Positions 876 through 28,284 of a stretch of 38,889 nt of DNA are shown here, in pieces; position 1 is the stretch's first letter, and each line of letters starts with the position of its first letter. The notes under the pieces were generated by a model, which saw nothing but the letters and a program-made list of their open reading frames with translations, did not search any database and had not been told where the DNA came from. The stretch is from positions 1 to 38,889 of the forward strand of contig VGLJ01000045.1 in the NCBI GenBank assembly GCA_016866775.1, given 5' to 3'. The stretch comes from Candidatus Rokuibacteriota bacterium. GTDB lineage: Bacteria; Methylomirabilota; Methylomirabilia; Rokubacteriales; CSP1-6. Both the position numbers and the translations under genes were made by a program.

Positions 876-908
876 GGCGCGGCGATCGTCCGTCGGCGAC
901 CGGCTCTG

Positions 909-1832: not shown

Positions 1833-1903
1833 GCCTCCCTCATGCCGATTATGTGCGACAAGCTCGCCGCTCTCTCTCCTTGCCGAGCGTTCCGGCTGAG
1901 GCG

Positions 1904-1961: not shown

Positions 1962-1974
1962 ACATAGGTCGAAG
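1954..1974 (+). promoter_or_regulatory. 5' UTR hairpin before the fasciclin gene
   Basis: CTTCGACC and GGTCGAAG form a perfect 8-bp stem with a 5-nt ACATA loop. It lies between the putative start of transcription and the strong AGGAGGAGG ribosome binding site at 1980-1988. It may stabilise the mRNA 5' end or contribute to regulation. There is no U tract, so it is not a terminator. Confidence 0.5.
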
Positions 1975-1993
1975 CACCCAGGAGGAGGAACCG

Positions 1994-2488: not shown

Positions 2489-2561
2489 CGCCAGCCCGAT
2501 CCGTCCCGCCGCCGAGCGCCGGCGGGACGGATCGGATCCATCCGAAGGTGAAGGAGTGCGG

Positions 2562-3947: not shown

Positions 3948-3966
3948 GGCCTGCGAGGAGCAGCCC

Positions 3967-9188: not shown

Positions 9189-9193
9189 GGACG

Positions 9194-13142: not shown

Positions 13143-13152
13143 CGAGGCGGGC

Positions 13153-14061
13153 TCAGCGCCGCACGGGCCCATCGCCGTTGTCGGCACCGGGGACGACAAG
13201 CCGATCCAGCGGCACCTCGAGCGCGCGCGTCAGGCGCAGCAACGCGCCGAGCGTCGGGTTCTGCTTGCCGCGCTCGAGACCACTGATATAGGTGCGATCG
13301 AGCGCGGCTGCTTCCGCGAGCTGCTGCTGCGTCCAGCCTTTGCCCGAACGGAGCTCCTGCACCCACCGTCCGAGGCGCTGGAAGTAGTCCTCGCTCGTTA
13401 CTCCCACGGGCGGCGGTCCCGCGATCAGACGCCGCGCCTCGTGCATCCCCGATAGCGCGTCGGCCGCGACGCCGTCGACGCCGAGGGTCGCGGCCGCGCG
13501 CGGGCGACCGCGGAGCGCGGTGCCGCCGGCGAGGATCTTCGGGACCGGGGCAACACCGCGAAGGGCCGTCGCGGTGGCGCTCACCGCGGGCAGGCGCTCG
13601 GGCTGCGTCACCGACAGCGCGACGAGGTCGGGATGCCGGCGCGCCACGAAGTCGACGAGGTCGCCGACGGGCGTGCTCGCCCCGAGGTACGCGACCGCCC
13701 AGCCGTCGATGAGGAGGAAGTCGGCGAGCATCCGCGCGCCGATCGCATGCCCTTCCCCTTCGACGCACGTGACGACGGCATGGCGGCCGAGATCCGATCG
13801 TGGAACGAGATGCGCGCGCAACCGGTCCATCTGACCGAGCGTGATCTCCGTGGCGAGGTGCTCGTCCGCGACCGAGAGGCGGCGGGCGCGCCACAGAGCT
13901 CCGACCTCGACCTGGGCCGGCGCGAGCAGATGCAGGTAGATCTGCTCCACGCTCCATCCGTCCCGCTGCGCCTGCTCCACGAGCGCGTCAGCGCGCGCGG
14001 CGTCGCCGCGCAGCAGCGCCTCCAGGTACCGTCGGTGTCGCTCGTCACGTCCGCTCGGCAC
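13153..14061 (-). CDS. CarH-like cobalamin-binding regulator with C-terminal XRE helix-turn-helix (copy 2)
   Basis: 302 aa. Same architecture as the protein at 909-1832 and about two-thirds identical by eye over the whole length: W57-x9-E67-H68, E103-x-H105-x-x-G108, and the XRE domain at ~232-290 with the recognition stretch LDRTYISGLERGKQNPT. The residue after W57 is Arg58. The start is GTG 14061, with GGAGG 5 nt upstream. It converges on the cytochrome gene and diverges from operon 2. Near identity of the recognition helix in the two copies predicts that both bind the same operator, which agrees with the matching boxes found at both promoters. Confidence 0.9.
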   Translation of the reverse strand: MPSGRDERHRRYLEALLRGDAARADALVEQAQRDGWSVEQIYLHLLAPAQVEVGALWRARRLSVADEHLATEITLGQMDRLRAHLVPRSDLGRHAVVTCVEGEGHAIGARMLADFLLIDGWAVAYLGASTPVGDLVDFVARRHPDLVALSVTQPERLPAVSATATALRGVAPVPKILAGGTALRGRPRAAATLGVDGVAADALSGMHEARRLIAGPPPVGVTSEDYFQRLGRWVQELRSGKGWTQQQLAEAAALDRTYISGLERGKQNPTLGALLRLTRALEVPLDRLVVPGADNGDGPVRR

Positions 14062-14138
14062 GCGTCCTCCGTCGCCGATGTGGGGGTCGTCCAGGTCGCC
14101 GCCGCCAGGTCCCGTCGTGACCGTTCCCGGCTGATGCT

Positions 14139-14196
14139 ATTGTCTAACATATTTGATATACGAGTTCCAGTAAGTAGTATATGTACTACTTCAACC
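14139..14196 (+). promoter_or_regulatory. Promoter/operator P2, matching P1
   Basis: Aligned without gaps to 1904-1961 it is identical at 36 of 58 positions by hand count. The best parts are ATATTTGA-y-A (14149-14158, holding the -35 TTGATA at 14153-14158) and GTAGTATATGTAC at 14174-14186, which sits 21 bp after the start of the -35, exactly as in P1. The downstream box is an almost perfect palindrome: AAGTAGTA (14172-14179), TATG, TACTACTT (14184-14191). It lies between divergent regulator copy 2 and the 14228 gene and should be its operator and the promoter of operon 2. Confidence 0.7.
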
Positions 14197-14227
14197 GGAG
14201 CCCGCACGGGGTGAGAGGGAGACCGCA

Positions 14228-14428
14228 ATGGAGACGACCACCTGGCCGCAGATCGCCGAGGGACTCTACAGCTTCCTGACCGGACGCGGCGCGACGATCG
14301 AGTACGAGTTCGAAAACGTCGAGGTCCGTGTGCCACGCGATACCGGCCACGATGCACCGCAGGCGCGCTGGAACATCCACGGCACGGTCCGCGTGAGGAC
14401 ATCCGAGCCGCGAGAGCGCCTCGGATAG
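14228..14428 (+). CDS. Small hypothetical protein
   Basis: 66 aa with no signal peptide or membrane helix. It is acidic in the first half (Glu-rich around YEFENVEV) and polar throughout. GAGAGGGAGA lies 5-14 nt before the ATG. It is the first gene behind P2, only ~32 bp from the palindromic operator, so it should be controlled by light/B12 if the model is right. I do not recognise a family. Confidence 0.6.
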   Translation: METTTWPQIAEGLYSFLTGRGATIEYEFENVEVRVPRDTGHDAPQARWNIHGTVRVRTSEPRERLG

Positions 14429-14495
14429 CCACGATCGCGGCGCGCTGCCGACGCGACTCGGCCGCGCGCCCATGCACTCTGAGGAGGAGGTCAGC

Positions 14496-14819
14496 ATGCA
14501 TCGCAGGTCCTTCGTCAAGATCGCCGTGCTCGCCGCCACCGTCGTCTCAGCGTCGGCGAGGGAGGCGATATCCCAGACACCGAAGGGAGCGGCTCCGGGG
14601 CCCAGGCTCGATCCGAAGGATCCCCTGGCCGTGACACTGGGCTACGTGGAGGCGCCGACCAAGGCCAACACGAGCAAGTTCCCCCAGTACAAGTCCGATC
14701 AGAAGTGCAGCAACTGCCAGCTCTACCTGGGCGCGGGACCCTCGGCGCCCTGCAGCATCTTCGGGAACAAGCAGGTGCCCGCGGGCGCCTGGTGCAGTGC
14801 CTGGGTCAAGAAGGTCTAG
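14496..14819 (+). CDS. High-potential iron-sulfur protein (HiPIP)
   Basis: 107 aa. A twin-arginine-type leader (HRRSFVK then a hydrophobic run) precedes a short mature domain with four cysteines C71-x2-C74-x11-C86-x13-C100 and the closing GAWCSAW, the HiPIP arrangement for a [4Fe-4S] cluster. HiPIPs are periplasmic one-electron carriers; Tat export of the folded holoprotein fits. An in-frame ATG at 14472 exists, but GAGGAGGAGG at 14481-14490 directly precedes ATG 14496, so I use the latter. It could exchange electrons with the four-heme cytochrome of operon 1 (inference). Confidence 0.9.
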   Translation: MHRRSFVKIAVLAATVVSASAREAISQTPKGAAPGPRLDPKDPLAVTLGYVEAPTKANTSKFPQYKSDQKCSNCQLYLGAGPSAPCSIFGNKQVPAGAWCSAWVKKV

Positions 14820-14863
14820 CGTGTCCGCCCGCGTGCGCGGGATCCTCGGCGTGCGCGTGGGCG

Positions 14864-15049
14864 GTGCCGCTGGTGACCGGCCTGCGCGGGGCGTCAGCGA
14901 TGATCCGGGTCCGCGCCCGGGGCGTGACGCTGCTGACGACCGGTCATGGGATGACGCGCGTCACTCCGTTCGGGATGCTGCTCGCGGGCCTCGCGGTCGT
15001 CGCGAACCGCGCGCGCACCTCGCGGCCGAACGCTGGAGCCGGCCGATGA
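14864..15049 (+). CDS. Possible small protein, coupled to the SDR gene
   Basis: About 61 aa if started at GTG 14864, 49 aa from ATG 14900. The frame ends in TGA at 15047-15049, giving the ATGA overlap with the SDR start at 15046 that is characteristic of true gene pairs here. A mildly hydrophobic stretch (FGMLLAGLAVVA) could be a membrane helix. There is no clear ribosome binding site and no recognised family. It could equally be leader sequence. Confidence 0.3.
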   Translation: MPLVTGLRGASAMIRVRARGVTLLTTGHGMTRVTPFGMLLAGLAVVANRARTSRPNAGAGR

Positions 15050-15794
15050 TCGACGCGGAGACGGCCTTCGTCGTCCTGGGAGCGACCGGCGGAATCGGCT
15101 CTGCGCTCTGCCATCGCCTCGCGGAGTCCGGTGCGCGACTCGTCGTAGCGGCGCGCGACCACGCGCGCGTCGCGGCGCTGGCCTCGAGCCTCGGGGCGGA
15201 GCCGTGTCGTCGATGCGACCCAGGTCAAGGAGGTCGATGCGTGCGTCGCGTTCGCGACGCAGCGATTCGGCCGCGTCAGCGGCATCGCCAGCTGCGTGGG
15301 ATCGCTGCTCCCTGAAGCCCGCCCACCTCACGACGGAGACCGAGTGGGCGACGACGCTCGCCACGAACCTGACCTCGGCCTTCGCCGCCACTCGCGCCGG
15401 CGCCCGCGCCATGCTCGAGACCGGCGGCTCGATCGTCCTCGTCTCGTCGGCCGCGGCGCGGCTGGGGCTCGCCAACCATGAAGCCATCGCGGCCGCCAAG
15501 GCCGGCATCATCGGCCTCGTGCTCGCGGGGGCTGCGTCGTACGGGGCGCGGGGCATCCGGGTGAACGCCGTGGCGCCGGGACTCGTGCGCACGGCGCTGA
15601 CGGAGCGGCTCACCGCCAGCGACGCGGCTCGCAAGGCCTCGATCGGCATGCACGCGCTCGGCCGCCTCGGCGAGCCCTCGGATGTTGCCTCCGCCATCGC
15701 CTGGCTGCTCGACCCGGCGCAGAGCTGGGTCACAGGCCAGGTGCTCGGCATCGATGGCGGGCTCGCCAGCGTACGCACGCGGGGAGGCGCCTGA
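15046..15794 (+). pseudogene. Short-chain dehydrogenase/reductase, two frameshifts, no catalytic Tyr
   Basis: The N-terminal cofactor site is GATGGIGSALC and the C-terminal half ends with the usual DGG. Protein similarity passes through three frames: frame 1 to about 15200, frame 2 (VVDATQVKEVDACVAFA) to about 15310, then frame 3 to 15794. Each jump is explained by one extra base (near GAGCCGTGTCG, and CTCCCTG). In the YxxxK position the sequence is IAAAK within NHEAIAAAK, so the catalytic Tyr is absent; SDR relatives with that motif exist, so this is probably ancestral, not decay. Assembly error or genuine inactivation are both possible. Confidence 0.75.
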
Positions 15795-15832
15795 GAGTCC
15801 GGGCGCTGCAAGCGGACTCGAGGAAGGACAGG

Positions 15833-16462
15833 ATGCTGCGCGACATCGTCTACTACACGCAGGTGCTCCTCGAAGCGGCGGTCGGGGTCATCGGGATCCG
15901 GCCTTACGAAGAGCCGCGCTATGCCGTGCTCGCGACGCTGCCCGACGGCGTCGAGATCCGCCGCTACGCGCCTCGGCTCGCCGCCCAGGTCGCCGTGCCC
16001 GCAGATGGGGCGGCAGCGCGGAACGAGGCCTTTCGCATCCTGTTCCGCTACATCACGGGCGGGAACGTCGCGGCGGAAAAGATCGAGATGACGGTGCCCG
16101 TCGCCACGAACGCGCGCACCGAGAAGATCGCGATGACCGTTCCCGTGGAATCCGCATCGAGGGACGGCGGTCTCCAGATGCAGTTCTTCCTGCCCGCGCG
16201 ATATACCGCCCAGACCGCGCCGCGCCCGGCGGACGAACGGATCAGAATCGTCCCGGTGGCGGAGGAAACGGTCGCCGTCCTGCGCTTCTCCGGGAGAGGC
16301 ACGGCGCAGGAGCTCGCGCGGCGCGAGGCGGAGCTGCTCGAGGCGCTCGCGACGACGGCGTGGCGGCCGGCGGGCGATCCTGCGATCCTCTTCTACGACG
16401 CACCGTCCACGCTTCCATTCCTGCGCAGGAACGAAGCCGCCGTCCGCGTTGATCGCAGATGA
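15833..16462 (+). CDS. SOUL-family heme-binding protein
   Basis: 209 aa with the SOUL/HBP pattern: EEPRYAVLATLPDGVEIRRYAPRLAAQV at the start, the repeated KIEMTVPV and KIAMTVPV blocks, and a late AVLRFSGRGT strand. Proteins of this family bind heme or tetrapyrroles without known catalysis. Light-responsive clusters often carry SOUL genes, perhaps to manage photoreactive porphyrins. AGGAAGGACAGG precedes the ATG. It overlaps the following gene by 4 bp. Confidence 0.9.
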   Translation: MLRDIVYYTQVLLEAAVGVIGIRPYEEPRYAVLATLPDGVEIRRYAPRLAAQVAVPADGAAARNEAFRILFRYITGGNVAAEKIEMTVPVATNARTEKIAMTVPVESASRDGGLQMQFFLPARYTAQTAPRPADERIRIVPVAEETVAVLRFSGRGTAQELARREAELLEALATTAWRPAGDPAILFYDAPSTLPFLRRNEAAVRVDRR

Positions 16463-17943
16463 GGGAACCCCACTCGACCGTGCTGGTCACGGGCGCCACC
16501 GGCTACGTCGGTGGCCGGCTGGTGCCGCGGCTGCTCGACGCCGGGTACCGGGTGCGATGCCTCGCGCGCTCGGCGCCCAAGCTCGCGGCCCGTCCCTGGT
16601 CGGCGAACCCACGCGTCGAGATCATCGAGGCGGATCTGAACGACGTCGGCGCCGTCGCGTCCGCCATGTCCGGCTGCCAGGCCGCCTACTTCCTCGTGCA
16701 CTCGATGGTCTCGACCGGGACGCGATATGCCGAGGCCGATCGGCAGCTCGCCGAGCGGTTCGCGGCGGCGGCCGGGCGCGCGGGGGTCGAGCGCATCATC
16801 TATCTCGGCGGCCTCGGCGAACGGGGCCAGGGACTGAGCAAGCACCTCGCGTCGCGGCGCGAGGTGGAAGCGGTGCTGGCCGCGGGTCCCGTGCCCGTCA
16901 CCGTCCTCAGGGCGGCGATGATCATCGGATCGGGCTCGGCGTCGTTCGAGATCCTGCGTTACCTCGTCGAGCGGCTGCCGGTGATGGTGACACCGCGGTG
17001 GGTCACGACGGTGTCGCAACCGATCGCGATCAGCAACGTCCTGACCTATCTCGTCGACTGTCTCTCCGTGCCCGCGACCATCGGCCGGACGCTCGACATC
17101 GGCGGCCCCGACATCGTCACCTACCTGGACCTGATGCGGATCATGGCGGAGGAGCGTGGCCTCCGCCGACGGCTCGTCATCCCGGTCCCGGTACTCACGC
17201 CGCGGCTGAGCTCGCTGTGGATCCATCTCGTCACCCCGGTGAGCCATCGGATCGCCCGGCCGCTCGCCGAGGGACTGCGCAACCCCGTCGTCTGCCGCGA
17301 CGACGAGGCCGCGCGCCTGATGCCCCAGCGGTTGCTCGGGGTACGCGAGGCCATCCGCGTGGCGCTCGAGCAAGTCGCGCACCGCGAGGTCGAGACCGGC
17401 TGGTACGATGCCGGGCCGATCCCTGGCGACCCCGACTGGGCGGGGGGCACGGTCTTCACCGATCGGCGCGAAGTCGAGGTCGCCGCGAGCCCGGACGACG
17501 TGTTCGCCACCGTGTCGCGGATCGGCGGCGAGACTGGCTGGTATGGCGTGGGATGGTTATGGAAAGTCCGCGGTGCTCTTGACCATCTCGCCGGTGGGCC
17601 CGGATTGCGGCGCGGGCGTCGCGACGCCTCGCGCGTTGCATTCGGCGATGCCATCGACTTCTGGCGCGTGACGGGCGTCGAGCCGGGTCGGCGGGTGGCC
17701 CTGCGTGCCGAGATGCGGCTGCCTGGTGAAGCGCTCCTGGAGTTCTCGATCGAGCCGTCGGCCGCACGCCCCGACCGATGCCGCCTGGTCCAGACCGCGC
17801 GGTTCTTGCCTCGCGGCTTGCTCGGCCTCGCCTACTGGTACGTCGTGCTGCCGATGCACACCGTGGTGTTCGGCCGCATGCTCAACGGGATCCGACGCGC
17901 CGCTGAGGCCTTGGCGACGTCGAGGAGCCACCAGGTCGCATGA
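16459..17943 (+). CDS. NAD(P)-binding SDR with C-terminal DUF2867 domain
   Basis: 494 aa. Residues ~1-300 are an atypical SDR/NmrA-like domain with VTGATGYVGGRLVPRLL as dinucleotide site and YFLVHSM in place of the usual catalytic centre. Residues ~325-490 match DUF2867 (EVEVAASPDDVFATV, GWYGVGWLWKVRG, YWYVVLPMHTVVFGRML). The fold of the second half is SRPBCC-like. Activity is unknown; a role with membrane lipids or quinones has been suggested for related proteins but is unproved. It is coupled at both ends by 4-bp overlaps. Confidence 0.88.
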   Translation: MREPHSTVLVTGATGYVGGRLVPRLLDAGYRVRCLARSAPKLAARPWSANPRVEIIEADLNDVGAVASAMSGCQAAYFLVHSMVSTGTRYAEADRQLAERFAAAAGRAGVERIIYLGGLGERGQGLSKHLASRREVEAVLAAGPVPVTVLRAAMIIGSGSASFEILRYLVERLPVMVTPRWVTTVSQPIAISNVLTYLVDCLSVPATIGRTLDIGGPDIVTYLDLMRIMAEERGLRRRLVIPVPVLTPRLSSLWIHLVTPVSHRIARPLAEGLRNPVVCRDDEAARLMPQRLLGVREAIRVALEQVAHREVETGWYDAGPIPGDPDWAGGTVFTDRREVEVAASPDDVFATVSRIGGETGWYGVGWLWKVRGALDHLAGGPGLRRGRRDASRVAFGDAIDFWRVTGVEPGRRVALRAEMRLPGEALLEFSIEPSAARPDRCRLVQTARFLPRGLLGLAYWYVVLPMHTVVFGRMLNGIRRAAEALATSRSHQVA

Positions 17944-19319
17944 CACGACGGACGTTCGTGCGCCGCTCGCGTCTCGAGGCGCCCGCCGACGCGGTCTACC
18001 GCTGGCACGCGCGCGCGGGCGCGCTCGAGCGCCTCAGTCCGCCGTGGACTCGTGCAGTCGTCGAGTCACGCAGTGGCGGCATCGAGGACGAAGGCGCGCG
18101 CGTCGTCCTGCGTGTCGGGCCGCTGCGCCAGCGCTGGGTGGCCGAGCACACCGGGGCTGTGCCAGGCCGCGAGTTCCACGACCGCCAGGTCGAGGGGCCG
18201 TTCGCCCTGTGGGAGCACACGCACCGGATGCAGCCCGAGGGTGACGCCGCCTGCACGCTGGAGGACCGGATCGAGTACGCGCTCCCCGCGGGCCGGGTGG
18301 GCGACCTCGTCGGCGGCCCGAGCATCCGCGCGATGCTCACGAGCCTGTTCGCCTACCGGCATCGCCTCACGGCCGACGACCTTGCCGCGCATGCGGCGTG
18401 TCATGGAGAGCGCGCGATGAAGGTGGCCATTACCGGTTCGAGCGGACTCGTCGGCAGCGCGCTCGTCCCCTTCCTCACGACGGGCGGCCACGAGGTCGTG
18501 CGACTCGTCCGCCGCGCACCACGGGCTCCGGACGAAGCGCGCTGGGACCCCGAGGCAGGGACCGTCGATGTGCGATCGCTCGAAGGCGCCGACGCGGTGG
18601 TGCACCTGGCCGGCGAGAGCATCGCCGAGGGGCGCTGGAGCGGGGCGAAGAAGGCGCGGCTGCGGTCGAGCCGGATCGGGCCGACCCGCCTGCTGGCGGA
18701 GACGCTCGCGGGACTGCGGCGGAAGCCGAAGGTGCTCGTCTCGGCCTCGGCCATCGGCTACTACGGCAACCGCGGTGACGTGGCGGTCACGGAGAAGGAC
18801 GCCCCCGCGGCCGACTTTCTGGGCCGGCTGTGCGTCGAGTGGGAGCAGGCGACCGAGCCCGCCGCCTCGGCAGGCATCCGAGTCGTGCACCTGCGGACTG
18901 GCATCGTCCTGAGCCCGACGGGCGGCGCGCTGGGCAAGCTGCTCCCGCTCTTCAGGATGGGCTTCGGAGGCGTGGTGGGCCCGGGCACGCAGTACATGAG
19001 CTGGATCGCGCTCGACGACCTGCTCGGCGTGATCCACCATGCGCTGGACCGGAACGACCTGGACGGACCGGTCAACGCGGTCGCCCCGGAGCCCGTGACG
19101 AACCGCGTCTTCACGACAACGCTCGGCCGCACGCTGCGCCGTCCGACGATCGTCCCCGTCCCCGCCTTCACCCTGCGCGCCGCCTTTGGCGAGATGGCGG
19201 ACGCTGCGCTGCTCGCGAGCACGCGCGTCCGGCCGGAGCGGCTGCTCGCCACCGGCTACCGCTTCCGTTTCCCGGAGCTCGAGGGCGCGCTCCGACACCT
19301 CCTGGGCAAGAAGGCGTGA
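17940..19319 (+). CDS. SRPBCC domain fused to a TIGR01777-type epimerase
   Basis: 459 aa. Residues ~1-150 are an SRPBCC ligand-binding domain (LERLSPPWTRAVV, GPFALWEHTHRM). An internal Met at 160 begins a complete TIGR01777/YfcH epimerase with VAITGSSGLVGSALV, VVHLAGESIAEGRWS, SASAIGYYGNRG and the C-terminal LLATGYRFRFPELEGAL block. The two families are usually separate, often adjacent genes; here they share one frame. No ribosome binding site is obvious before codon 160, so a single fusion protein is likely. It overlaps its neighbours by 4 bp on both sides. Confidence 0.88.
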   Translation: MTRRTFVRRSRLEAPADAVYRWHARAGALERLSPPWTRAVVESRSGGIEDEGARVVLRVGPLRQRWVAEHTGAVPGREFHDRQVEGPFALWEHTHRMQPEGDAACTLEDRIEYALPAGRVGDLVGGPSIRAMLTSLFAYRHRLTADDLAAHAACHGERAMKVAITGSSGLVGSALVPFLTTGGHEVVRLVRRAPRAPDEARWDPEAGTVDVRSLEGADAVVHLAGESIAEGRWSGAKKARLRSSRIGPTRLLAETLAGLRRKPKVLVSASAIGYYGNRGDVAVTEKDAPAADFLGRLCVEWEQATEPAASAGIRVVHLRTGIVLSPTGGALGKLLPLFRMGFGGVVGPGTQYMSWIALDDLLGVIHHALDRNDLDGPVNAVAPEPVTNRVFTTTLGRTLRRPTIVPVPAFTLRAAFGEMADAALLASTRVRPERLLATGYRFRFPELEGALRHLLGKKA

Positions 19320-20363
19320 GCCCAATCGCGCTCACTCTCTTCCCCTTCGCCGACTACTGGTGGCTGTACGCCGCCTTCACCGGCGGCGTGCTGGTCCTGC
19401 TGGCGGTCGATCTCGGGCTCTTCCATCGCGACGCGCACGAAGTCGGGTTCCGCGAGGCGGCCGTGTGGAGCGCGGTGTGGATCGGTCTCGCGCTGGCCTT
19501 CAGCGGGGCGCTCTACCGGTACGCGCTGTGGAGGTTCTCGAACGACCCGCGCCTCGGCGGCGTGCCCGGATTCGACTCCGCGGCGGCCGCGTGGCAAGTC
19601 GCGCTGGAGTTCCTGACGGGCTTCATCGTCGAGAAGTCGCTGTCGGTCGACAACGTCTTCGTCTTCGTGCTGATCTTCGGCTACTTCGCGATTCCCGCGA
19701 AGTACCAGCACCGCGTCCTCTTCTACGGCATCCTCGGAGCCCTCGTCTTCCGGGCGATCTTCGTCGGCCTCGGCGCGGTGCTCATGCAGTTCCACTGGGT
19801 GGTCTGGCTCTTCGGCGCCTTCCTGATCTTCACCGGGCTCAAGATGGCTATTCGCGCCCGAGAAGGGGCTCGACCCCGACCGGAACCCGCTCATCCGCCT
19901 CTTCCGGCGGTTCGTGCCGGTCACGGCCCGGCTGCACGGCCAGCGCTTCTTCGTGCGGGAGCGCGGCGTGCTCGCGGCCACGCCGCTCTTCGTGGCCCTG
20001 CTCTTCGTCGAGATCACGGACATCATCTTCGCCGTCGACTCGGTGCCGGCGATCTACGCGCTCACCGACGAGCCCCTGATCGTGTTCGCGATCCTGGGCC
20101 TGCGGGCGCTCTACTTCCTGCTCGGCGGCGCGGTCACGCGCTTCCACATGCTCAAGTACGGACTCGCGCTCGTGCTGATCTTCGTGGGCTTCAAGATGGC
20201 CTGGCTCAACGACCTCTGGGCGGGGAAGTTCCCGATCACATGGTCGCTCGGCATCATCGGCTCGCTGATCGCCGCCTCTGTCGTGCTGTCGCTCGTCGTG
20301 GCCCCGCGGCCGCCCGCCACGCGACCGGGCCGCGCCGCGAGCGCGCCCGGCACGAACGGTTAG
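19316..20363 (+). pseudogene. TerC/Alx-family membrane protein with one frameshift
   Basis: From GTG 19316 the frame encodes several membrane helices with the TerC motif EKSLSVDNVFVF. At about 19845-19855 similarity moves to another frame, and 19852-20363 completes the family (APEKGLDPDRNP, then FVEITDIIFAVDSVPA and the final helices). One extra base in GATGGCTATTCGCG explains the jump. TerC/Alx proteins are linked to metal (Mn2+, tellurite) resistance or export. The intact remainder suggests either very recent inactivation or an assembly error. The end overlaps the convergent split-barrel gene by 4 bp. Confidence 0.85.
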
Positions 20364-20797
20364 CCGCCTTGCATCCGCTCCGTGTAGTCCCAGGAGACCA
20401 GGCGCGTCGGCGTGATGCGGATCGCCACCTCGTCCGCCGCGCCCGCGAGGAGCTGCCGTGCGAGCCGCGAGTCCGTGGCTCCGAGGTAGCGCTCGATCAG
20501 CTCGCCGAGCAGGCGCCCGCCCGCGTCGCGCGCCACCTGCGCGCGCCCTTGCCCGCGGACCCCGCGATACGGCGGGGCATCGCGCGCCACCTCGAACGCG
20601 CAGCGCGCGTCGCGCTCCAAGTGCCGCACCACGTGTGCGCGCGGCCGGCTCGCGCACCAGAGCGCGCCGTCGCGATAGAGGAACCACAGCGAGAGCACGA
20701 GCGGCGATCCCGACGCCGTGAGGCAGGCCAGCCGTACGGGGACCACCGTGTCCCGCAGATGGCGCTCGACCTGCTCGAAGGTATAGGGTCCGCTCAT
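20360..20797 (-). CDS. Pyridoxamine-phosphate-oxidase-like flavin/F420 split-barrel protein
   Basis: About 145 aa from ATG 20797 (20812 and 20806 are in-frame alternatives). The split-barrel pattern is visible: FEQVERHLRDTVVPVRLACLTASGSPLVLSLWFLYRDGALWCAS, followed by RCAFEV and VRGQGRAQV strands. Family members bind FMN, F420 or heme and act as reductases or oxidases on varied substrates; the substrate here cannot be read. Its ATG overlaps, on the other strand, the ATG of the DUF523 gene, so the two starts share bases and no 5' spacer exists between them. Confidence 0.8.
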   Translation of the reverse strand: MSGPYTFEQVERHLRDTVVPVRLACLTASGSPLVLSLWFLYRDGALWCASRPRAHVVRHLERDARCAFEVARDAPPYRGVRGQGRAQVARDAGGRLLGELIERYLGATDSRLARQLLAGAADEVAIRITPTRLVSWDYTERMQGG

Positions 20798-21776
20798 GCG
20801 CACCATGGGCACGCCGCAGTCTAGCGCTCCCGACCGGATCCGGCTCGGCGTGTCGGCGTGCCTGCTCGGCGAGGCCGTGCGCTACGACGGCGGGCACAAG
20901 CACGATCGGTTCCTCACCGACGTCCTCGGCCCCTACGTTGAGTGGGTGCCGGTGTGTCCGGAAGTCGAGATCGGACTCCCCATCCCTCGGGACACGCTGC
21001 GGCTGGTCGGGAGCCTGGCGGCCCCGCGCCTCGTCCAGGAGAAGACGGGCGAGGACCTGACGGCCCGGATGCAGCAATACAGCGAGGACCGCGTGCGCGG
21101 CCTCGCCGAGCTCGAGCTGGACGGCTACGTGCTCAAGCGCGCGTCGCCCTCATGCGGGCTCTTCCGCGTGCGCGTCTACCGGGACAACGGCATCCCCGCC
21201 GCCGACGGCCGCGGCCTCTTCGCGGCCGCGCTCGCCACGGCCCTGCCGGCCTTGCCGATCGAAGAGGAAGGACGGCTCACCGACCCGGCGATCCGGGAGA
21301 ACTTCATCGAGCGCGTCTTCCTCGCCGCGCGCTGGCGCGCGTTCATCGCCACGCGGCCCCGGTCGCGCGACCTCGTAGCCTTCCACGCCGCCCACAAGTT
21401 CGCCGTCCTCGCGCACAGCCCGGCGCACTACGCTCGCCTGGGCCGGATGGTCGCCGCTACCGGACGCGTGCTCGGTCGCGCGCAGCTCGAGGCCTACCAC
21501 GCCGCGCTCATGGAGGCCTTCGCCGTGCGCGCGACGCGCGGGCGGCACGCGAACGTGCTCCAGCACCTCGCGGGCTATTTCAAGCGCGACCTCGGTCCGG
21601 ACGAGCGGGCCGAGCAGGTGGAGGTGATCGACGAGTACCGGCGCGGCCTCGTGCCGCTCGTCGTGCCGCTCACGCTGGTCAAGCACCACGTCCGCCGCCT
21701 GGGCGTGAGCTACCTCGCCGACCAGGTGTACCTCAATCCGCATCCGAAGGAGCTGATGCTCCGCAACCACGTGTGA
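20796..21776 (+). CDS. DUF523-DUF1722 fusion (YbgA type)
   Basis: 326 aa. The N-terminal DUF523 (~17-160) has the expected cysteine motifs: GVSACLLGEAVRYDGG, PVCPEVEIGLPIPR and RASPSCGL. Single-domain relatives (TudS) are [4Fe-4S] thiouracil desulfidases. The C-terminal DUF1722 (~190-320) contains FHAAHKFAVLAHSPAHY. In E. coli the homologue ybgA sits directly beside phr, and the pair recurs in light-induced LitR/CarH regulons, so presence here supports the light-response reading of the locus. The biochemical role of the fused protein is not established. Confidence 0.9.
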   Translation: MRTMGTPQSSAPDRIRLGVSACLLGEAVRYDGGHKHDRFLTDVLGPYVEWVPVCPEVEIGLPIPRDTLRLVGSLAAPRLVQEKTGEDLTARMQQYSEDRVRGLAELELDGYVLKRASPSCGLFRVRVYRDNGIPAADGRGLFAAALATALPALPIEEEGRLTDPAIRENFIERVFLAARWRAFIATRPRSRDLVAFHAAHKFAVLAHSPAHYARLGRMVAATGRVLGRAQLEAYHAALMEAFAVRATRGRHANVLQHLAGYFKRDLGPDERAEQVEVIDEYRRGLVPLVVPLTLVKHHVRRLGVSYLADQVYLNPHPKELMLRNHV

Positions 21777-22081: not shown

Positions 22082-22276
22082 ATGGTGAGGCTCCTGACGT
22101 TTGCCGAAGCGGCGCACCGCGCGTCCAATTCTCAGGCATGGTGGCGAAAGCTTGCGTCGCGCCGCCAAATCGCTGTCGTGAAGCTCGGACGTAGCGCGCG
22201 GCTGCGAGAGGAAGACGTGGCACAGATCATCCGTGATGGCGTGCGTCCTGCTCGCGTGGATTCACCATCGCGGTGA
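22082..22276 (+). CDS. Excisionase-like small helix-turn-helix protein
   Basis: 64 aa. Pattern LTFAEAAHRASNSQAWWRKLASRRQIAVVKLGRSARLREEDVAQII fits the MerR-like winged helix of excisionases (HTH_17), in which xVxKLGRSxRLxxxDVxxxI is diagnostic. These proteins bend DNA for excision or act as small regulators in integrative elements. GAGGTGAAGG lies upstream. It overlaps the primase-like start (GTGA), an arrangement found in phage-satellite and plasmid replication modules. Found with the primase stub, it marks element-derived DNA inside the light-gene island. Confidence 0.7.
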   Translation: MVRLLTFAEAAHRASNSQAWWRKLASRRQIAVVKLGRSARLREEDVAQIIRDGVRPARVDSPSR

Positions 22277-22526
22277 TTGACGCGCCCGACCGGATTCACA
22301 GAACGGAGAGCGGCGCAGTGATCACGCTCGATGACGTCCTGCCGCGGCTCCAAGGCGCGCGACACTGCGGGCGCGGTTGGATCGCGAAGTGCCCGGCTCA
22401 CCGCGACCGCCGACCATCGCTGAAGGTCGACACAGGCGTTGACGGCCGCGCGCTTCTGCACTGCCACGCGGGCTGCTCGTATCACGAGATCGTGCGCGCG
22501 CTGAACCTCGGCCGGCCGTCCTCGAC
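22273..22526 (+). pseudogene. Phage/plasmid-type primase, zinc-finger N-terminal stub
   Basis: About 85 residues from GTG 22273 carry the zinc-binding module C40-PA-H43 (CPAHRDRRPSL) and C64-x3-C68 (LLHCHAGCSYHEIVRAL) of CHC2-type primases of phages and integrative elements. Similarity ends at RPSSTT, right before the -10 hexamer of the amidohydrolase gene; the toprim and helicase parts are missing. The frame stays open beyond as an overlap with the next gene. It is a truncated gene left by deletion or recombination, not a working primase. Confidence 0.7.
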
Positions 22527-22532
22527 TACAAT
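22527..22532 (+). promoter_or_regulatory. -10 hexamer of a probably leaderless promoter
   Basis: TACAAT lies 8 nt before ATG 22541, with no ribosome binding site between. Transcription starting ~7 nt after a -10 box would begin at or next to the start codon. The same spacing recurs before genes at 28662, 29237, 30170, 33317, 33905 and, on the minus strand, 33245 and 38438. Confidence 0.45.
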
Positions 22533-22540
22533 CCCAGGCC

Positions 22541-24157
22541 ATGGCGAGCCCCGACTCCGTCTTCGTCAACGCCACCATCCACACCCTCGACACGACGCGC
22601 CCGCGCGCGAGCGCGCTCGCCGTGCGCGACGGCCGGCTCATCGCCGTGGGCGACGTCGACGACGTGCGGCGCGCCGCCGGCCGCGACGCTCGCGTGGTCG
22701 ACCTCGGCGGGCGCACCGTCGTGCCCGGCTTCGTCGAGTCGCACTGCCACTTCCTCTACTACGGCCTCACGCTCGACCAGGTCGACGCGCGCACGCCGCC
22801 CAACACGTCGATCACCGACATCCAGGCGCGGGTGAAGGAGTTCGCGCGCCGGCTGCCGCCGGGCACGTGGATCCAGGGCTGGGGCTACGACGACACGCTC
22901 GTGGCCGACATGCGTCATCTCACGCGCCAGGACCTCGACCCGGTGGCGCCCGATCATCCCGTGTACCTCCGCCACATCTCCGGGCACCTCGGCTACGCGA
23001 ACAGCGCGGCCCTCCAGATCGCCGGGCTCGGGCGCCACGCGAAGTCGGAGTCGGGCGGCCACGTCGTGCTCGACCGCGCGGGCGATCCGACGGGCGAGGT
23101 GCACGAGCGGCCGGCGCAGGAGCTGATCACCCGGCACATCCCGAAGGTGGCGTACGACGACCTGCGCGAGGCCGCCCGCCGCGCGACCGACGTGTTCGCG
23201 CGGGTGGGCGTCACGTCGTTCCACGACGCCGGGGTGGGGTTCTCCGCGGGCGTCGACGACTTCCACGCCTACCAGGACGCGGTGGCCTCCGGCGACGTGC
23301 CGCTGCGCGCGACGCTCTTCCCGCACTACGTCCTGGCCGACCGGCTCACCTTCCACTCCGGCTTCGGCAACGACTACCTGCGCGTGGGCCCGCTCAAGCA
23401 CATCGCCGACGGGTCGATCCAGGGCCACACGGCCGCGCTGTGCGATGCGTACGCCGACCGGCCCGGCCAGACCGGCCTGCACGTCATGAATCACGGCCAG
23501 CTCGTCGACAGCTACCGCGCCGCCCACGCGCGCGGCTTCCAGCTCGCCACGCACGGCAACGGCGACGCCGCCATCGACTCGATCCTCGAAGCCTACGAGA
23601 CCGTGCTGCGCGAGAAGCCGCGGGCCGATCACCGCTTCCGCATCGAGCACTGCCAGATGGCGACGGAGGCCCAGCTCGACCGCATGCAGCGGCTCGGCGT
23701 GATGGCGTCGTTCTTCGCGGTGCACACGTACTACTGGGGCGACCGCCACCAGCGCCTCTTCCTCGGGCCCGGCCGCGCCCAGCGCATCGATCCCCTCGCC
23801 TCCGCCCTCGGCCGCCAGATCCACTTCGCGCTGCACTCCGACTGCCCGGTCACGCCCGTGAATCCGCTGATGAGCGTGTGGTCGGCCGTCAACCGCATCA
23901 CCCGCGAGGGCAAGGTGCTCGGCCCCGAGCAGCGCATCCTCGTGCGCGACGCGCTGCGGGCGTTCACGATCGACGCGGCGTACCTCGCCTTCGAGGACCG
24001 CGACAAGGGCACGCTGGTACCCGGCAAGCTCGGCGACTTCGTGGTGCTCGACCGCGATCCGCTCGCCGTCGAGCCCGAGACCATCCGCGACATCCAGGTG
24101 CTGCGCACGGTGGTCGGCGGCCGCGATGTGTTCGAGGCCGACGCGGCCGCGCGCTGA
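22541..24157 (+). CDS. YtcJ-like metal-dependent amidohydrolase
   Basis: 538 aa. N-terminal beta-sandwich (VFVNATIHTLD … GRLIAVGDVDDV) and TIM barrel with metal motif ESHCHF, later histidines in LATHGNGDAAI and RIEHCQM, and the acidic HSDCPVTPVNP, then the C-terminal GTLVPGKLGDFVVLDRDPL strand. Family members hydrolyse amide or related C-N bonds of varied small molecules. The ABC importer genes 34 bp downstream suggest import followed by hydrolysis of an amidated substrate (inference). Confidence 0.93.
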   Translation: MASPDSVFVNATIHTLDTTRPRASALAVRDGRLIAVGDVDDVRRAAGRDARVVDLGGRTVVPGFVESHCHFLYYGLTLDQVDARTPPNTSITDIQARVKEFARRLPPGTWIQGWGYDDTLVADMRHLTRQDLDPVAPDHPVYLRHISGHLGYANSAALQIAGLGRHAKSESGGHVVLDRAGDPTGEVHERPAQELITRHIPKVAYDDLREAARRATDVFARVGVTSFHDAGVGFSAGVDDFHAYQDAVASGDVPLRATLFPHYVLADRLTFHSGFGNDYLRVGPLKHIADGSIQGHTAALCDAYADRPGQTGLHVMNHGQLVDSYRAAHARGFQLATHGNGDAAIDSILEAYETVLREKPRADHRFRIEHCQMATEAQLDRMQRLGVMASFFAVHTYYWGDRHQRLFLGPGRAQRIDPLASALGRQIHFALHSDCPVTPVNPLMSVWSAVNRITREGKVLGPEQRILVRDALRAFTIDAAYLAFEDRDKGTLVPGKLGDFVVLDRDPLAVEPETIRDIQVLRTVVGGRDVFEADAAAR

Positions 24158-24191
24158 CCCCGTGCACGACACCCATGAGGAGGCTTCTGAC

Positions 24192-25793
24192 ATGAGAGCA
24201 CCGCATCGTCCTCGCCTGGCCGCCGTGGCCGTCGCAGTGCTGGCGCTCGCGTCGATCCTCGCGTTGCCGGTCACCGAGGCCGCGGCGCAGGCGCGGGGCG
24301 GGACGCTCAAGATGAGCTATCCCGAGCCGACCCACCTGAACCCGGCCATCGTGTCGGGCACGCCGACCGGCATTCCCGGCGTGCAGCTCTTCGCCGGGCT
24401 CGTGCTCCACGACGACAAGTTCCAGCCGCAGCCGTACCTGGCCGAGCGCTGGACGATCTCGCCCGACGGCCGGACGTACACGTTCCACCTGGTGAAGAAC
24501 GCCACGTTCCACGACGGCAAGCCGATCACCTCGGAGGACGTGAAGTTCTCCATCGAGACGGTGAAGGCCAACCACCCGTTCGGCGTGGCCATGCATCGCG
24601 CCCTGGAGGCGGTGGAGACGCCGAACCCGTCGACGGTGGTCTTCCGGATGTCGCACCCGAACCCGTCGTTCATGAGCGTGGTGGCGCCGATCCTCCTGCC
24701 CGTGCTGCCCAAGCACGTGTACGGCACCGGCGACGACATCAAGAAGCACCCGGCCAACCAGAAGCCGGTCGGCTCGGGACCGTTCAAGTTCGTGGAGTGG
24801 CAGCCCGGGCGGCACCTGATCCTCGAGCGCTTCGACAAGTTCTTCAAGCCCGGCCGGCCGTACCTCGACCGCGTCATCTTCGAGTACATCACCGACCCCG
24901 CCGCGCGCCTGGCCGCCATCGAGACCGGCGCCATCCACCTCCTGCCCTACAACTACGTCGGCGTGGGCAACCTCAAGCGCGTGGAGCAGCTCGCGCACCT
25001 CGGTGTGACCACCAAGGGCTACGAGGCGATCGGGCCGCTCTTCTGGCTGGAGATCAACCTCCGCAAGAAGGAGCTGTCCGACGTGCGCGTGCGGCAGGCG
25101 CTCAACCACGCGCTCGACAAGCAGCTCATCCTCAAGGACATCTTCCTCGGCTACGGCAAGGTGGCCGACGGGCCGCTCGTGTCCGCCAGCCCGTTCTACA
25201 ACCCGAAGATCCGGCGCTACGAGTACAGCCTCGACAAGGCCAACAAGCTGCTCGACGAGGCCGGCTACAAGCGCGGGGCCGACGGCACGCGCTTCAAGCT
25301 GGTGCTCGACTTCATCCCCGGCACCGCCGACACGCAGTCGGTCGGCGAGTACATCCGCGAGCAGGCCAAGAAGGTCGGCATCGACATGACGCTGCGCGCG
25401 AGCCCCGACTTCCCGACCTGGGCCGGACGCATGGGCCGCTGGGAGTTCGACCTCTCGCTCGACGCCGTCTTCAACTGGCCCGATCCGGTCGTCGGCGTGG
25501 AGCGCACCTACATCTCCAGCAACATCAAGCAGGCCGTGTGGACGAACGTGATGGGCTACAACAACCCCAAGGTCGACGAGCTCTTCGCGCAGGCCCAGCG
25601 CGAGCAGACGCTGGAGAAGCGCAGGGCCATCTACCACCAGGTGCAGGACGTGCTCACCGCCGAGCTGCCCATCATCTGGCTCAGCGAGATCGGCTACACG
25701 ACCGTGTGGAACAAGGACTACGACGGCATCCCCACCAACATCTGGGGAACCATGAGCCCGTTCGACACGGTGCACTGGAAGAAGGCGAAGTGA
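24192..25793 (+). CDS. ABC transporter substrate-binding protein, peptide/opine/nickel family
   Basis: 533 aa from ATG 24192, with GAGGAGG 11 nt upstream. A signal peptide (~1-35, cleaved near AAAQA) precedes a family 5 solute-binding protein: GGTLKMSYPEPTHLNPA, the lobe motif YTFHLVKNATFHDGKPITSEDVKFSIE, and VRQALNHALDKQLI. These proteins bind oligopeptides, opines, glycosides or nickel chelates in the periplasm. With two permeases directly downstream it forms the membrane part of an importer. Confidence 0.93.
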   Translation: MRAPHRPRLAAVAVAVLALASILALPVTEAAAQARGGTLKMSYPEPTHLNPAIVSGTPTGIPGVQLFAGLVLHDDKFQPQPYLAERWTISPDGRTYTFHLVKNATFHDGKPITSEDVKFSIETVKANHPFGVAMHRALEAVETPNPSTVVFRMSHPNPSFMSVVAPILLPVLPKHVYGTGDDIKKHPANQKPVGSGPFKFVEWQPGRHLILERFDKFFKPGRPYLDRVIFEYITDPAARLAAIETGAIHLLPYNYVGVGNLKRVEQLAHLGVTTKGYEAIGPLFWLEINLRKKELSDVRVRQALNHALDKQLILKDIFLGYGKVADGPLVSASPFYNPKIRRYEYSLDKANKLLDEAGYKRGADGTRFKLVLDFIPGTADTQSVGEYIREQAKKVGIDMTLRASPDFPTWAGRMGRWEFDLSLDAVFNWPDPVVGVERTYISSNIKQAVWTNVMGYNNPKVDELFAQAQREQTLEKRRAIYHQVQDVLTAELPIIWLSEIGYTTVWNKDYDGIPTNIWGTMSPFDTVHWKKAK

Positions 25794-25815
25794 CCACTCC
25801 GCGCGCCGGAGCCTG

Positions 25816-26790
25816 ATGGGTCTCGGATCGTTCGTCGGGCGCCGGGCACTGGGGGCCTGCCTCCTCGTGCTCGGCGCCATCGTCCTCAACTTCCTGCTCA
25901 TCCACCTGGCCCCGGGCGACCCGGCGCTCATGCTGGCCGGCGAGGCCGGCGGCACCAGCGAGGAAGCGCTCAGGAAGATCCGTGCCGACTTCGGCCTCGA
26001 CCAGCCGCTCGCCGTCCAGCTCCTCGTCTACATGGGCCGGCTGGCCCGGGCCGATCTCGGCTTCTCGTACTTCTACAACCGCCCGGTGCTGGCCCTCATC
26101 GCCGACCGCGTGCCGCAGACGCTGCTGCTCGCCCTCACCGCGCTGACGGTGGCGTGGGTCGTCGGCGTGGGCTTCGGCGTGCTGGTCGCCCGCAAGCCGG
26201 CGTCGCTCGGCGGCAACGCGCTCGCCGTGGTCTCGCTGCTCGGCTACGCGATGCCGGTGTTCTGGACGGCGATCATGCTGCTGCTGCTCTTCGCCGTGAA
26301 GCTGCCGTGGTTCCCGACCCACGGCATGGTCACCGTCGGCGGCACGGGCGGCACGCTCGCCCAGGCCCTCGACGTGGGCCACCACCTGGTGCTGCCCGCC
26401 GTCTCGCTCAGCATCATCTTCGTGGCGCTCTACAGCCGCCTGACGCGGGCGAGCATGCTGGAGGCGCTCGCCTCGGACTTCATCCGCACCGCGCGCTCCA
26501 AGGGCGTGCCGGAGTCGCGCGTGCTGCTCAAGCACGCGCTGCGCAACGCGCTGCTCCCCGTCGTGACGGTGGCGGGCATCCAGCTCGGCCAGGTGCTCGC
26601 CGGGACAATCCTCGTGGAGACGGTGTTCAGCTGGCCGGGGATGGGGCGGCTCGCCTACGAGTCCATCCTGCGTCGCGACTATCCGCTGCTGCTCGGCATC
26701 CTCCTCTTCTCGTCGGTGGCCGTCGTCGTCTTCAACCTCGTCACCGACGTCTTCTACGGCGTGCTCGACCCACGGATCCGCCACCGGTGA
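25816..26790 (+). CDS. ABC transporter permease, DppB/OppB-like
   Basis: 324 aa. Six predicted membrane helices; an N-terminal GDPALMLAGEAG stretch as in DppB, and the EAA loop at ~220-245 (EALASDFIRTARSKGVPESRVLLKHALRNALLP) that contacts the ATPase. The 22-bp gap to the binding-protein gene and the GTGA overlap with the next permease indicate one operon. Confidence 0.93.
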   Translation: MGLGSFVGRRALGACLLVLGAIVLNFLLIHLAPGDPALMLAGEAGGTSEEALRKIRADFGLDQPLAVQLLVYMGRLARADLGFSYFYNRPVLALIADRVPQTLLLALTALTVAWVVGVGFGVLVARKPASLGGNALAVVSLLGYAMPVFWTAIMLLLLFAVKLPWFPTHGMVTVGGTGGTLAQALDVGHHLVLPAVSLSIIFVALYSRLTRASMLEALASDFIRTARSKGVPESRVLLKHALRNALLPVVTVAGIQLGQVLAGTILVETVFSWPGMGRLAYESILRRDYPLLLGILLFSSVAVVVFNLVTDVFYGVLDPRIRHR

Positions 26791-27632
26791 GCCTCGGGCG
26801 ACGGCTGCGCTGGGTGCGGGCGAACCTCGCCGCCTGCCTGGGCCTGGTGCTGCTGGCGGGGGTGCTGGGGCTCGCCACGCTCGGGCCCGTGCTCCATCGC
26901 GGCGACCCGTGGGAGCGCGTGGGCCGTCGCTTCGAGACGCCGGGCGGGCGCTTCGCGCTGGGCACCGACCACCAGGGCCGCGACGTCCTCGCGGGCATCG
27001 TCGTCGGCGCGCGCACGTCCCTGCTCGTGGGCGTGGCGGCCGCCGCCATCATCCTCGTCATCGGCGTCACCGTCGGCGCGGTGGCCGGCTACCACGGCGG
27101 CCGCCTCGACGAGGTGCTCATGCGGGTGACGGAGTTCTTCCAGATCCTCCCCGCGTTTCTCTTCGCGATGGTGCTGGTGGCCATCTTCTCGCCCAGGATC
27201 GCCGTCATCGTGCTCGCCATCGGCGTGTCGAACTGGGCGGGCACGGCGCGGCTGGTGCGCGCGGAGTTCCTGTCGCTGCGCGAGCGCGACTACGTGGTGG
27301 CGGCGCGCGCGCTGGGCGTCGGCGACGCGCGCATCATCCGCCGCGAGATCCTGCCCAACGCGCTGCCACCCGTCATCGTGAACGGCTCGCTCACGGTGGG
27401 CGTCGCCATCCTGTTCGAGACGGGCCTCTCGTTCCTCGGCCTCGCCGACCCCAACGTGATGAGCTGGGGCTACATGATCGGCAGCTCCCGCATCTACCTG
27501 CGCGACGCCTGGTGGCCCGTGACGTTCCCGGGCCTCGCCATCGCGGGGAGCGTGATCGGTCTGTCCCTCTTCGGCGACTGGCTCAACGACGTGCTGAACC
27601 CGAGGCTGAAGGAGCGCCGCCAGACGGCGTGA
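26787..27632 (+). CDS. ABC transporter permease, DppC/OppC-like
   Basis: 281 aa from GTG 26787, overlapping the stop of the preceding gene. The N-terminal helix, the DppC motif HQGRDVLAGIVVGARTSLLVG, and the EAA loop REILPNALPPVIVNGS are clear. No DppD/DppF ATPase gene follows; the next gene is a truncated phosphatase at the island edge, so the ATPases were lost here or are encoded elsewhere. Confidence 0.93.
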   Translation: MSLGRRLRWVRANLAACLGLVLLAGVLGLATLGPVLHRGDPWERVGRRFETPGGRFALGTDHQGRDVLAGIVVGARTSLLVGVAAAAIILVIGVTVGAVAGYHGGRLDEVLMRVTEFFQILPAFLFAMVLVAIFSPRIAVIVLAIGVSNWAGTARLVRAEFLSLRERDYVVAARALGVGDARIIRREILPNALPPVIVNGSLTVGVAILFETGLSFLGLADPNVMSWGYMIGSSRIYLRDAWWPVTFPGLAIAGSVIGLSLFGDWLNDVLNPRLKERRQTA

Positions 27633-27648
27633 GATAGTGTCCTGGAAC

Positions 27649-27941
27649 ATGAACGCCGTCCGAGCTCTCGTGGTCGTGGCGGTCGCCGCGTGGCTGACGT
27701 CGACGGCCCACGCCCAGTCGGCCGATGCCGTGTGGGACGCCATCACGCTGCCCGGCAGCGTCGTGGTGGTGCGGCACAGCTACGCGCCCGGCGGGTTCGA
27801 TCCGCCCGATTCGAAGCTGGAGGACTGCTCGACGCAGCGGAACCTCGACGAGAGCGGGCGCGCGCAGGCCGCGCGCATCGGCGAGGCCTTCAAGCAGCGG
27901 GGCATCACCGTGGGCGAGGTGCTGTCGAGCCCGCGCTGCCT
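27649..27941 (+). pseudogene. Truncated exported histidine phosphatase
   Basis: A signal peptide (~1-22) is followed by the start of a histidine phosphatase/phosphoglycerate-mutase domain: VVVVRHSYAPG holds the catalytic Arg-His, then RNLDESGRAQAARIGEAFKQRGI and VLSSPRC. Similarity ends at SSPRC, about 98 residues in, where a 13-bp tandem repeat begins. The second half, with the other catalytic His, is missing, so the product cannot be active. The break lies between this gene and the integrase stub. Confidence 0.75.
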
Positions 27942-27966
27942 GTACCAAGGGCCTGTACCAAGGGCC
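27939..27966. repeat. 13-bp tandem duplication at a gene break
   Basis: The unit CCTGTACCAAGGG occurs twice in direct succession (27939-27951 and 27952-27964). It sits precisely where phosphatase similarity stops. A short tandem duplication at a truncation point is consistent with an illegitimate recombination scar. Confidence 0.6.
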
Positions 27967-28006
27967 AACATGAACGCGGACGGGCACCGACGGTTGCCGA
28001 GCGCCG

Positions 28007-28156
28007 ATAAGGGCCTTTGTCGCCTACGCTCAATTTCTGGCTCTCTACGGGCACCTGTCGCCAGGACACCGGTTGAGCGCGATCGAGCGGCTCGCGAGCC
28101 GTCCGGCCAAGGCCGAAACAGCCGTCGCCGTCGGTACGGAGTCGCACCGTGATTAG
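28007..28156 (+). pseudogene. Tyrosine recombinase (integrase) C-terminal remnant
   Basis: The frame ending at TAG 28154-28156 reads FVAYAQFLALYGHLSPGH then a basic/alanine-rich tail. Y-x-H-L-S-P-x-H is the end of the catalytic domain of many phage-type integrases, in which the Tyr of YxHLS is the DNA nucleophile. Nothing upstream of about 28007 continues the similarity, so the Arg-His-Arg part is gone. The stop lies 50 bp from the tRNA-borne repeat, exactly where integrase genes of tRNA-targeting elements usually end. The assignment rests on a short stretch. Confidence 0.5.
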
Positions 28157-28205
28157 CACCAGCGGATTTCGCCGGAATCGCTGCTGTGTTGGAAGTGCGC
28201 GAAAT

Positions 28206-28254
28206 GACGTGGAGCCGGGGGCGGGAGTTGAACCCGCGACCTACTGATTACGAA
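28206..28254 (-). repeat. Right copy of the 49-bp direct repeat (att-like)
   Basis: Identical to 58-106 and in the same orientation. It begins at the first base of the anticodon loop and runs through the 3' end of the tRNA plus 4 bp. Here the repeat is joined to a matching 5' half, so this copy keeps a functional tRNA. Confidence 0.85.
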
Positions 28255-28284
28255 TCAGTTGCTCTGCCTCTGAGCTACCCCGGC
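28210..28284 (-). tRNA. tRNA-Thr (anticodon CGU)
   Basis: 75 nt including an encoded CCA. Acceptor stem GCCGGGG/CCCCGGC, D stem GCTC/GAGC, anticodon stem ACTGA/TCAGT with loop TTCGTAA (anticodon CGT), five-base variable region, T stem GCGGG/CCCGC with loop TTCAACT, discriminator T. It decodes ACG. All stems pair perfectly, so the gene should be functional. Confidence 0.95.

Follow-up and report, generated by a model that had tools for sequence, protein, structure and literature searches.

Elements that have lost their integrase and kept their att sites are known as cis-mobilisable elements (CIMEs). Genomic islands that lie in tRNA genes and carry tyrosine integrases have been catalogued in Islander (PMC4383910). 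The island described here was found in a window of 38,889 nucleotides, the window being the whole stretch of DNA that was analysed. With the Islander islands (PMC4383910) it shares an intact tRNA, a displaced 3' fragment in the same orientation and an integrase remnant beside the tRNA, and like the islands of Islander class A it has a duplicated block that extends to the anticodon loop. Unlike them, it retains only the last 40 codons of the integrase, and a motif was noted at both of its inner ends. Since only 40 codons are left, the integrase-gene test of Islander would probably miss this island. Like a CIME, the island keeps both att copies, together with candidate arm sites, without a working integrase gene. 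The remnant itself resembles the family PF00589 (Phage_integrase) in having the C-terminal box with the nucleophile Tyr, H-L-S-P and an A-x-E-x-L helix, and differs from it in being a pseudogene without the other catalytic residues and without the stop codon of its relatives. An integrase fossil in a tRNA island is of an ordinary kind; this locus adds two features, a motif paired at its ends and a repeat where the integrase was cut.

A short frame occupies 28007-28156 on the plus strand, with the translation IRAFVAYAQFLALYGHLSPGHRLSAIERLASRPAKAETAVAVGTESHRD and a TAG stop at 28154-28156. It is separated by 53 bases from tRNA-Thr(CGT) at 28210-28284 on the minus strand, the 3' end of which points toward it. 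The whole frame had been taken for an integrase stub in the initial annotation. The bases up to 28031, which encode IRAFVAYA and supply one base of the Q codon, are within an 82-bp dispersed repeat, so the integrase similarity starts only after the repeat, at about 28032; the assignment stands for about 28032-28156 and fails for the first eight codons. The feature is therefore given as:

28032..28156, plus strand: tyrosine recombinase pseudogene, last 40 codons and stop, nucleophile tyrosine included (homology, profiles, DNA alignment)

We consider it highly likely that this segment is the dead 3' end of a tyrosine-recombinase gene whose integrative element inserted at the anticodon loop of tRNA-Thr(CGT). 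The tyrosine of the stub aligned with the invariant Y249 of alignment A1, and H251, L252, S253 and P254 were likewise matched. The invariant R248 and A250 of this alignment are L and G in the stub, the arginine that precedes the tyrosine in most relatives being replaced by leucine. The catalytic R...K...H-x-x-R residues are absent, as the coding region for them is missing.

Profile searches of the stub against Pfam, NCBIfam and PHROGs found no integrase family, giving 0 families in Pfam and PHROGs and one unrelated weak family in NCBIfam. A match to the PF00589 profile was lacking in the stub and anywhere on the window's contig, C45. The initial annotation had held that an absence of similarity to integrases in a profile search would speak against its reading. 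The blank result in the general libraries counts against the integrase in this sense, and other evidence was therefore sought; with family-specific profiles and with relatives the fragment did match. Matches to the 48-residue stub at E<=0.1 were present in 16 of 57 genomes of the same family, its own genome counted, and the three best outside matches (E 6.9e-7, 7.9e-7 and 6.7e-6) all aligned to the very end of the stub. From the stub matches, 19 outside loci were fetched and their frames read. Most of them were tyrosine recombinase C termini, for example RYAHLSPxHRxxAIERL; L046, L048, L049 and L050, with weaker matches, were not integrases, and L053 was of another subtype. PF00589 was matched by L037 (2.2e-33, over 280 residues up to the contig edge) and by L041 (7.4e-24), and L037 matched phrog_1 as well. 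When the L037 integrase was used to search the genome of the window, 28037-28141 matched its last 35 residues with 49% identity and E 0.02, a reciprocal match that is weak on its own. With the same query no close relative of this integrase subtype was found elsewhere in the assembly; the matches other than the stub were 26-38% identical to it, and a helper integrase for the site, as a CIME would use, was not seen.

Two profiles made from integrases placed the stub above all of 20,000 shuffles. The first, built from 24 integrase C termini, scored it at 32.3 bits against 11.0 for the best shuffle, with a circularity in that 14 of the 24 had been found via the stub itself. The second was built from integrases of named public genomes and is less circular, its signal being correspondingly weaker: the stub scored 12.7-13.2 bits, the best shuffle 10.3, and among 659 six-frame stretches of the window the stub had the best match (E 0.005, compared with 12 for the next). 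These public integrases had been found with an alignment of five relatives, which were themselves first found through the stub. They were the best 80 of at least 516 confirmed stretches, with a readable stop in 79, and 55 of these 79 were located within 400 bases of a tRNA.

The similarity was also seen at the DNA level. The segment 28032-28209 aligned with the integrase 3' ends and downstream DNA of G015, G030, G026, G024 and G054 with 62-71% identity over 118-164 nt, with E-values of 2.5e-11 to 4.7e-16 that apply to those five relatives' sequences only, and the best alignment score was reached by 0 of 1000 mononucleotide shuffles. The alignment continued past the stop in all five relatives and reached 28198-28207 in four, leaving no more than about 11 bases to the tRNA. 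The initial annotation had noted the Y-x-H-L-S-P-like tyrosine recombinase end of the frame and its placement where integrase genes end, and this reading is supported by the family-specific evidence. The TAG that ends the frame in L037, L038 and L051 is TCG in the window, where the frame is four codons longer; the frames of L040 and L041 stop a few bases further on, in another frame. Given that the stop codon used by the relatives has been lost, the integrase gene of the window looks dead.

G024, G030 and G054 each have an integrase of this kind next to a tRNA-Thr(CGT), oriented as in the window. The genes beyond the tRNA in G024 and G030 match those to the right of the tRNA in the window, which indicates the same chromosomal site. 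The integrase genes of both are broken in frame in their contigs, and the intact homologue next to tRNA-Thr for which the initial annotation had suggested looking was not seen in the relatives. In G054 the integrase and the tRNA-Thr that has the right-hand neighbour gene of the window are on separate contigs, so this integrase may sit at a second tRNA. A 45-base match to the tRNA 3' part, with no whole tRNA called, follows the integrase end in G015, and the neighbour of the integrase in G026 is tRNA-Lys. The stub could be explained by chance instead, as a short frame without coding function in which a Y-x-H-L-S-P string occurs by accident, and its 40 codons and the lack of any curated library profile would fit such an origin. 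This is extremely improbable, given the DNA similarity across the stop toward the tRNA in five relatives and the scores above every shuffle with two profiles, and it is largely contradicted by G024 and G030, which have integrases in the corresponding position next to tRNA-Thr. With high probability the stub is what remains of the integrase of the tRNA-Thr island, and its proposed role as a trace of the enzyme behind the island is supported by the relatives' integrases, the DNA similarity and the tRNA-Thr synteny. A 40-codon scrap that is invisible to general profile libraries can be confidently named through synteny and DNA similarity to relatives.

The island at tRNA-Thr is real, as seen from the duplicated tRNA 3' part, the flank genes at the tRNA in three relatives and the motif at both ends. 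Its borders are:

28203..28284, minus strand: tRNA-Thr(CGT), its 3' part holding the inner att copy, attL (tRNA call, duplication)
55..112, plus strand: outer att copy (attR), repeating tRNA-Thr between the anticodon loop and the 3' end (duplication)

Positions 55-112 and 28203-28260 are 95% identical over 58 nt in the same orientation, the duplicate ending at the anticodon loop, and the repeat search of the window had one outer att copy among the families listed. The tRNA duplications of the window and of G030 finish at the same ..TACGAA. Window bases 1-127 are an exact 127-base overlap with the reversed end of contig C103, which was for this reason taken as the left neighbour, the join resting on a k-mer overlap. 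This overlap is a graph junction on the outer att copy and possibly reflects strain variation at the site. On the other side, the PCP_red gene right of the tRNA (28662-29159) was present in 47 of the 57 family genomes, with tRNA-Thr(CGT) beside it in 18 of 30 fetched loci, the window's own included. Larger stretches were taken for 15 loci, and the 14 that had tRNA-Thr were searched with the proteins of C103 and the window. Homologues of C103 genes and the tRNA were on one stretch in 11 of these 14. Three of them were empty sites, with gaps of 487 bp (G042), 941 bp (G011) and 1449 bp (G043) from the C103-type flank genes to tRNA-Thr, and the other eight had 5.0-13.9 kb there. With gaps of such varied length, and about 28.1 kb here, the site is a hot spot. 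Integrase-like frames were found in only two of the 14 loci, which speaks against the preferred reading: one of another subtype on the 3' side of tRNA-Thr (L130 of G004), and one, also of another subtype, on the other side of the tRNA, with a further weak stretch 4 kb away (L134 of G014).

Between these borders the following segments were distinguished:

717..21776, no strand assigned: island cargo (Pfam; GC3 0.79-0.94 in 13 genes measured)
22082..22276, plus strand: excisionase-like HTH_17 gene (TIGR01764 3.2e-4 and HTH_17 1e-4, both weak, below the curated cut-off; phrog_1840 2e-4)
22318..22540, plus strand: mobile-element DNA primase, N-terminal zinc-finger part (phrog_6088 1.1e-11, profile 2-65 of 772)
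22541..27939, plus strand: segment of host-like composition with a whole amidohydrolase, an ABC peptide transporter and the 5' half of a histidine phosphatase (Pfam, GC3, NF004842)

The stub had been called the best direct trace of mobility. It is indeed an integrase remnant, but not the sole trace, as the excisionase-like gene and the primase fragment occupy 22082-22540. Over 55 residues the excisionase-like gene shares 45% identity with a frame that lies within the G030 element; no match was obtained when a G030 frame was examined as a helicase. The primase similarity stops near 22509, and there is a homologue in L150. The search query ended at 22536 and a whole amidohydrolase follows from 22541, and from these two facts together the primase appears to have been cut. 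The measured genes of 22541-27939 have GC3 values of 0.95-0.98, compared with 0.91-0.97 in ten flank genes and the range listed above in the 13 cargo genes before 21.8 kb, the ranges of cargo, segment and flank overlapping slightly. A composition step was accordingly seen within 21777-27939, GC3 rising from the cargo values to 0.95-0.98 at the amidohydrolase gene.

The two ends of the island carry copies of a 23-bp motif:

28138..28160, plus strand: DNA motif across the integrase 3' end, candidate arm-type site (conserved in relatives' loci)
247..269, plus strand: far-end counterpart of this motif, candidate arm-type site (3 mismatches when compared with 28138..28160)

The motif around the integrase stop region, GGAGTNGCACCGTGATTNGCACC, is present, with up to 5 mismatches allowed in its 23 bases, at six of the 19 outside loci (L036, L037, L038, L040, L041 and L051). 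Its far-end copy is 134 bp further into the island than the end of the outer att copy, and two motif matches were obtained in 0 of 100 shuffles. With a weight matrix made without the far site, 247-269 scored 21.2 bits, whereas the next place in the window had 9.8; when the first 800 bases were shuffled by mononucleotide 2000 times, this score was never reached. A second copy was sought in six contigs of relatives. In the G030 element, which has 7.5 kb and the same layout as the window island, the 3' part of its own tRNA is duplicated (98% over 51 nt), and two overlapping motif copies (oriented L241, 1993-2027) lie about 140 bp from this duplicate; 21 of the 23 bases at 247-269 are identical to a site at the far end of this element. 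G024 has a weaker second motif (17.9 bits), with no second att copy found. In L243-L246 neither a second att copy nor a second motif above 12.3 bits was found, and these contigs, like that of G024, may stop short of the far end. The end motif is a putative arm-type site that the integrase would bind, and the pair provides candidate arm sites for this integrase family. These results bear on whether the stub could be left from an older, different element, the 28-kb island having been brought by another integrase at the same tRNA. Such a succession would suit a hot-spot site where other DNA takes up 5.0-13.9 kb in eight of the 11 relatives, and also the composition shift at about 22.5 kb. It is nevertheless unlikely, because the motif tied to the integrase subtype of the stub is at both island ends, the far copy is like the far copy of the G030 element of the same subtype, and the window repeat search has one outer att copy among the families listed.

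The left end of the stub is marked by two features:

27940..27952, plus strand: 13-bp duplication of the left tip of the repeat (sequence)
27953..28031, plus strand: dispersed repeat joining the truncated phosphatase to the integrase stub, 82 bp, of which 79 bp here (12 genome places)

The initial annotation had seen a truncated phosphatase and a 13-bp tandem before the stub, fused by a deletion. Both exist, the phosphatase matching NF004842 at positions 6-101 of 209 only and stopping at 27939, and the tandem being CTGTACCAAGGGC twice within 27940-27966, but the junction is the 82-bp dispersed repeat. Nearly identical copies of this repeat occupy 12 places in the genome of the window, one of them of only 38 bp. 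Among 60 genomes of the order, the full repeat query gave matches in this genome and in G025 (3 matches) only; when the right-end pattern of the repeat was searched in four genomes, G024 also had one. For this pattern no exact match was obtained in genome_contigs or viral_contigs, where the own or near genomes may be absent, and no blastn match in plasmids. Two other identities, a known RNA and a stable hairpin, were tried for the repeat and rejected: in the five loci searched against Rfam only tRNA passed the gathering score, and the folding of four sequences gave stabilities no greater than those of shuffles.

Four copies of the repeat were tested for a cut left-hand gene, namely that of the window and those on C39, C40 and C126, and in all four the match of this gene to its family breaks off at the repeat or no more than 8 residues from it. 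The cut genes are the phosphatase, an amidohydrolase (1-144 of 289), a lipoyl ligase (1-41 of 200, below the Pfam cut-off and 2.6e-6 in NCBIfam) and an ABC permease N domain (1-75 of 114). Among the other eight copies, some adjoin whole-looking genes or contig ends. Neither the lost half of the phosphatase nor that of the integrase turned up elsewhere in the assembly. Apart from the truncated gene, the phosphatase search of the genome gave one match, a nearly full-length paralogue on C4 (19-197 of 209), hence not a separate C-terminal half of the window's phosphatase, and a close integrase N-terminal part was likewise not found in this genome. The integrase might have been cut by plain slippage between the 13-bp tandem units, with the dispersed repeat uninvolved. 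The tandem is present, as this would need, but it is the tip of the 82-bp repeat, and the left-hand gene match also stops at most 8 residues from the repeat at C39, C40 and C126; we regard slippage as quite improbable. The dispersed repeat is a candidate cause of the integrase loss.

The history that we prefer, with the stub as the remnant of the island's own integrase, would run as follows. An integrative element very probably entered at the anticodon loop of tRNA-Thr(CGT), and its integration rebuilt the tRNA at 28210-28284 and displaced the old 3' part to 55-112, about 28.1 kb off. Originally the element may have carried excisionase, primase and integrase in that order. A rearrangement ending in the dispersed repeat may then have removed the integrase 5' part, and the same event may have swapped the middle from primase to integrase for the host-like DNA of 22541-27939. 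The island now looks fixed unless an integrase acts in trans.

Six copies of the repeat are followed, at nearly the same internal point (AAGGGCCTTT), by an insertion sequence-like end of either of two kinds, one at four copies and the other at two. The first of these ends, of 18 bp, has five occurrences in the genome, all at the repeat, that on C126 being at the right-hand piece only. The short peptides of the insertion sequences beside the repeat had no match in Pfam or NCBIfam; we presume that these insertion sequences resemble the IS1595 family. It is conceivable, though doubtful, that the 82-bp repeat represents a small dispersed element family of this lineage, undescribed as judged by the database and literature searches made here, at which insertion sequences of two kinds preferentially land and whose copies are rearrangement end-points that truncate genes and strand islands. 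The integrase of a related element could then still act in trans and move an island so stranded, with its two att copies and candidate arm sites.

The cargo at 717-21776 includes, by Pfam, two B12-binding HTH regulators, a fasciclin, a photolyase, an aldehyde dehydrogenase and an FAD oxidoreductase, which we take to be CrtI-like, as well as cytochrome c, SOUL, DUF2867, TerC and others. The combination of photolyase and B12-binding regulator presumably resembles CarH/LitR clusters; a literature search for LitR with photolyase and fasciclin found nothing. The stub points to the entry route of this light-response-like block of photolyase, FAD oxidoreductase and B12-binding regulators, and the loss of the integrase would be why the block now looks fixed. 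The two copies of the B12-binding regulator lie amid the photolyase, FAD oxidoreductase and SOUL genes, which looks like light-response cargo. This regulator gene is present in two diverged copies, at 909-1829 and 13153-14061 on the minus strand, with 72-79% DNA identity in four blocks.
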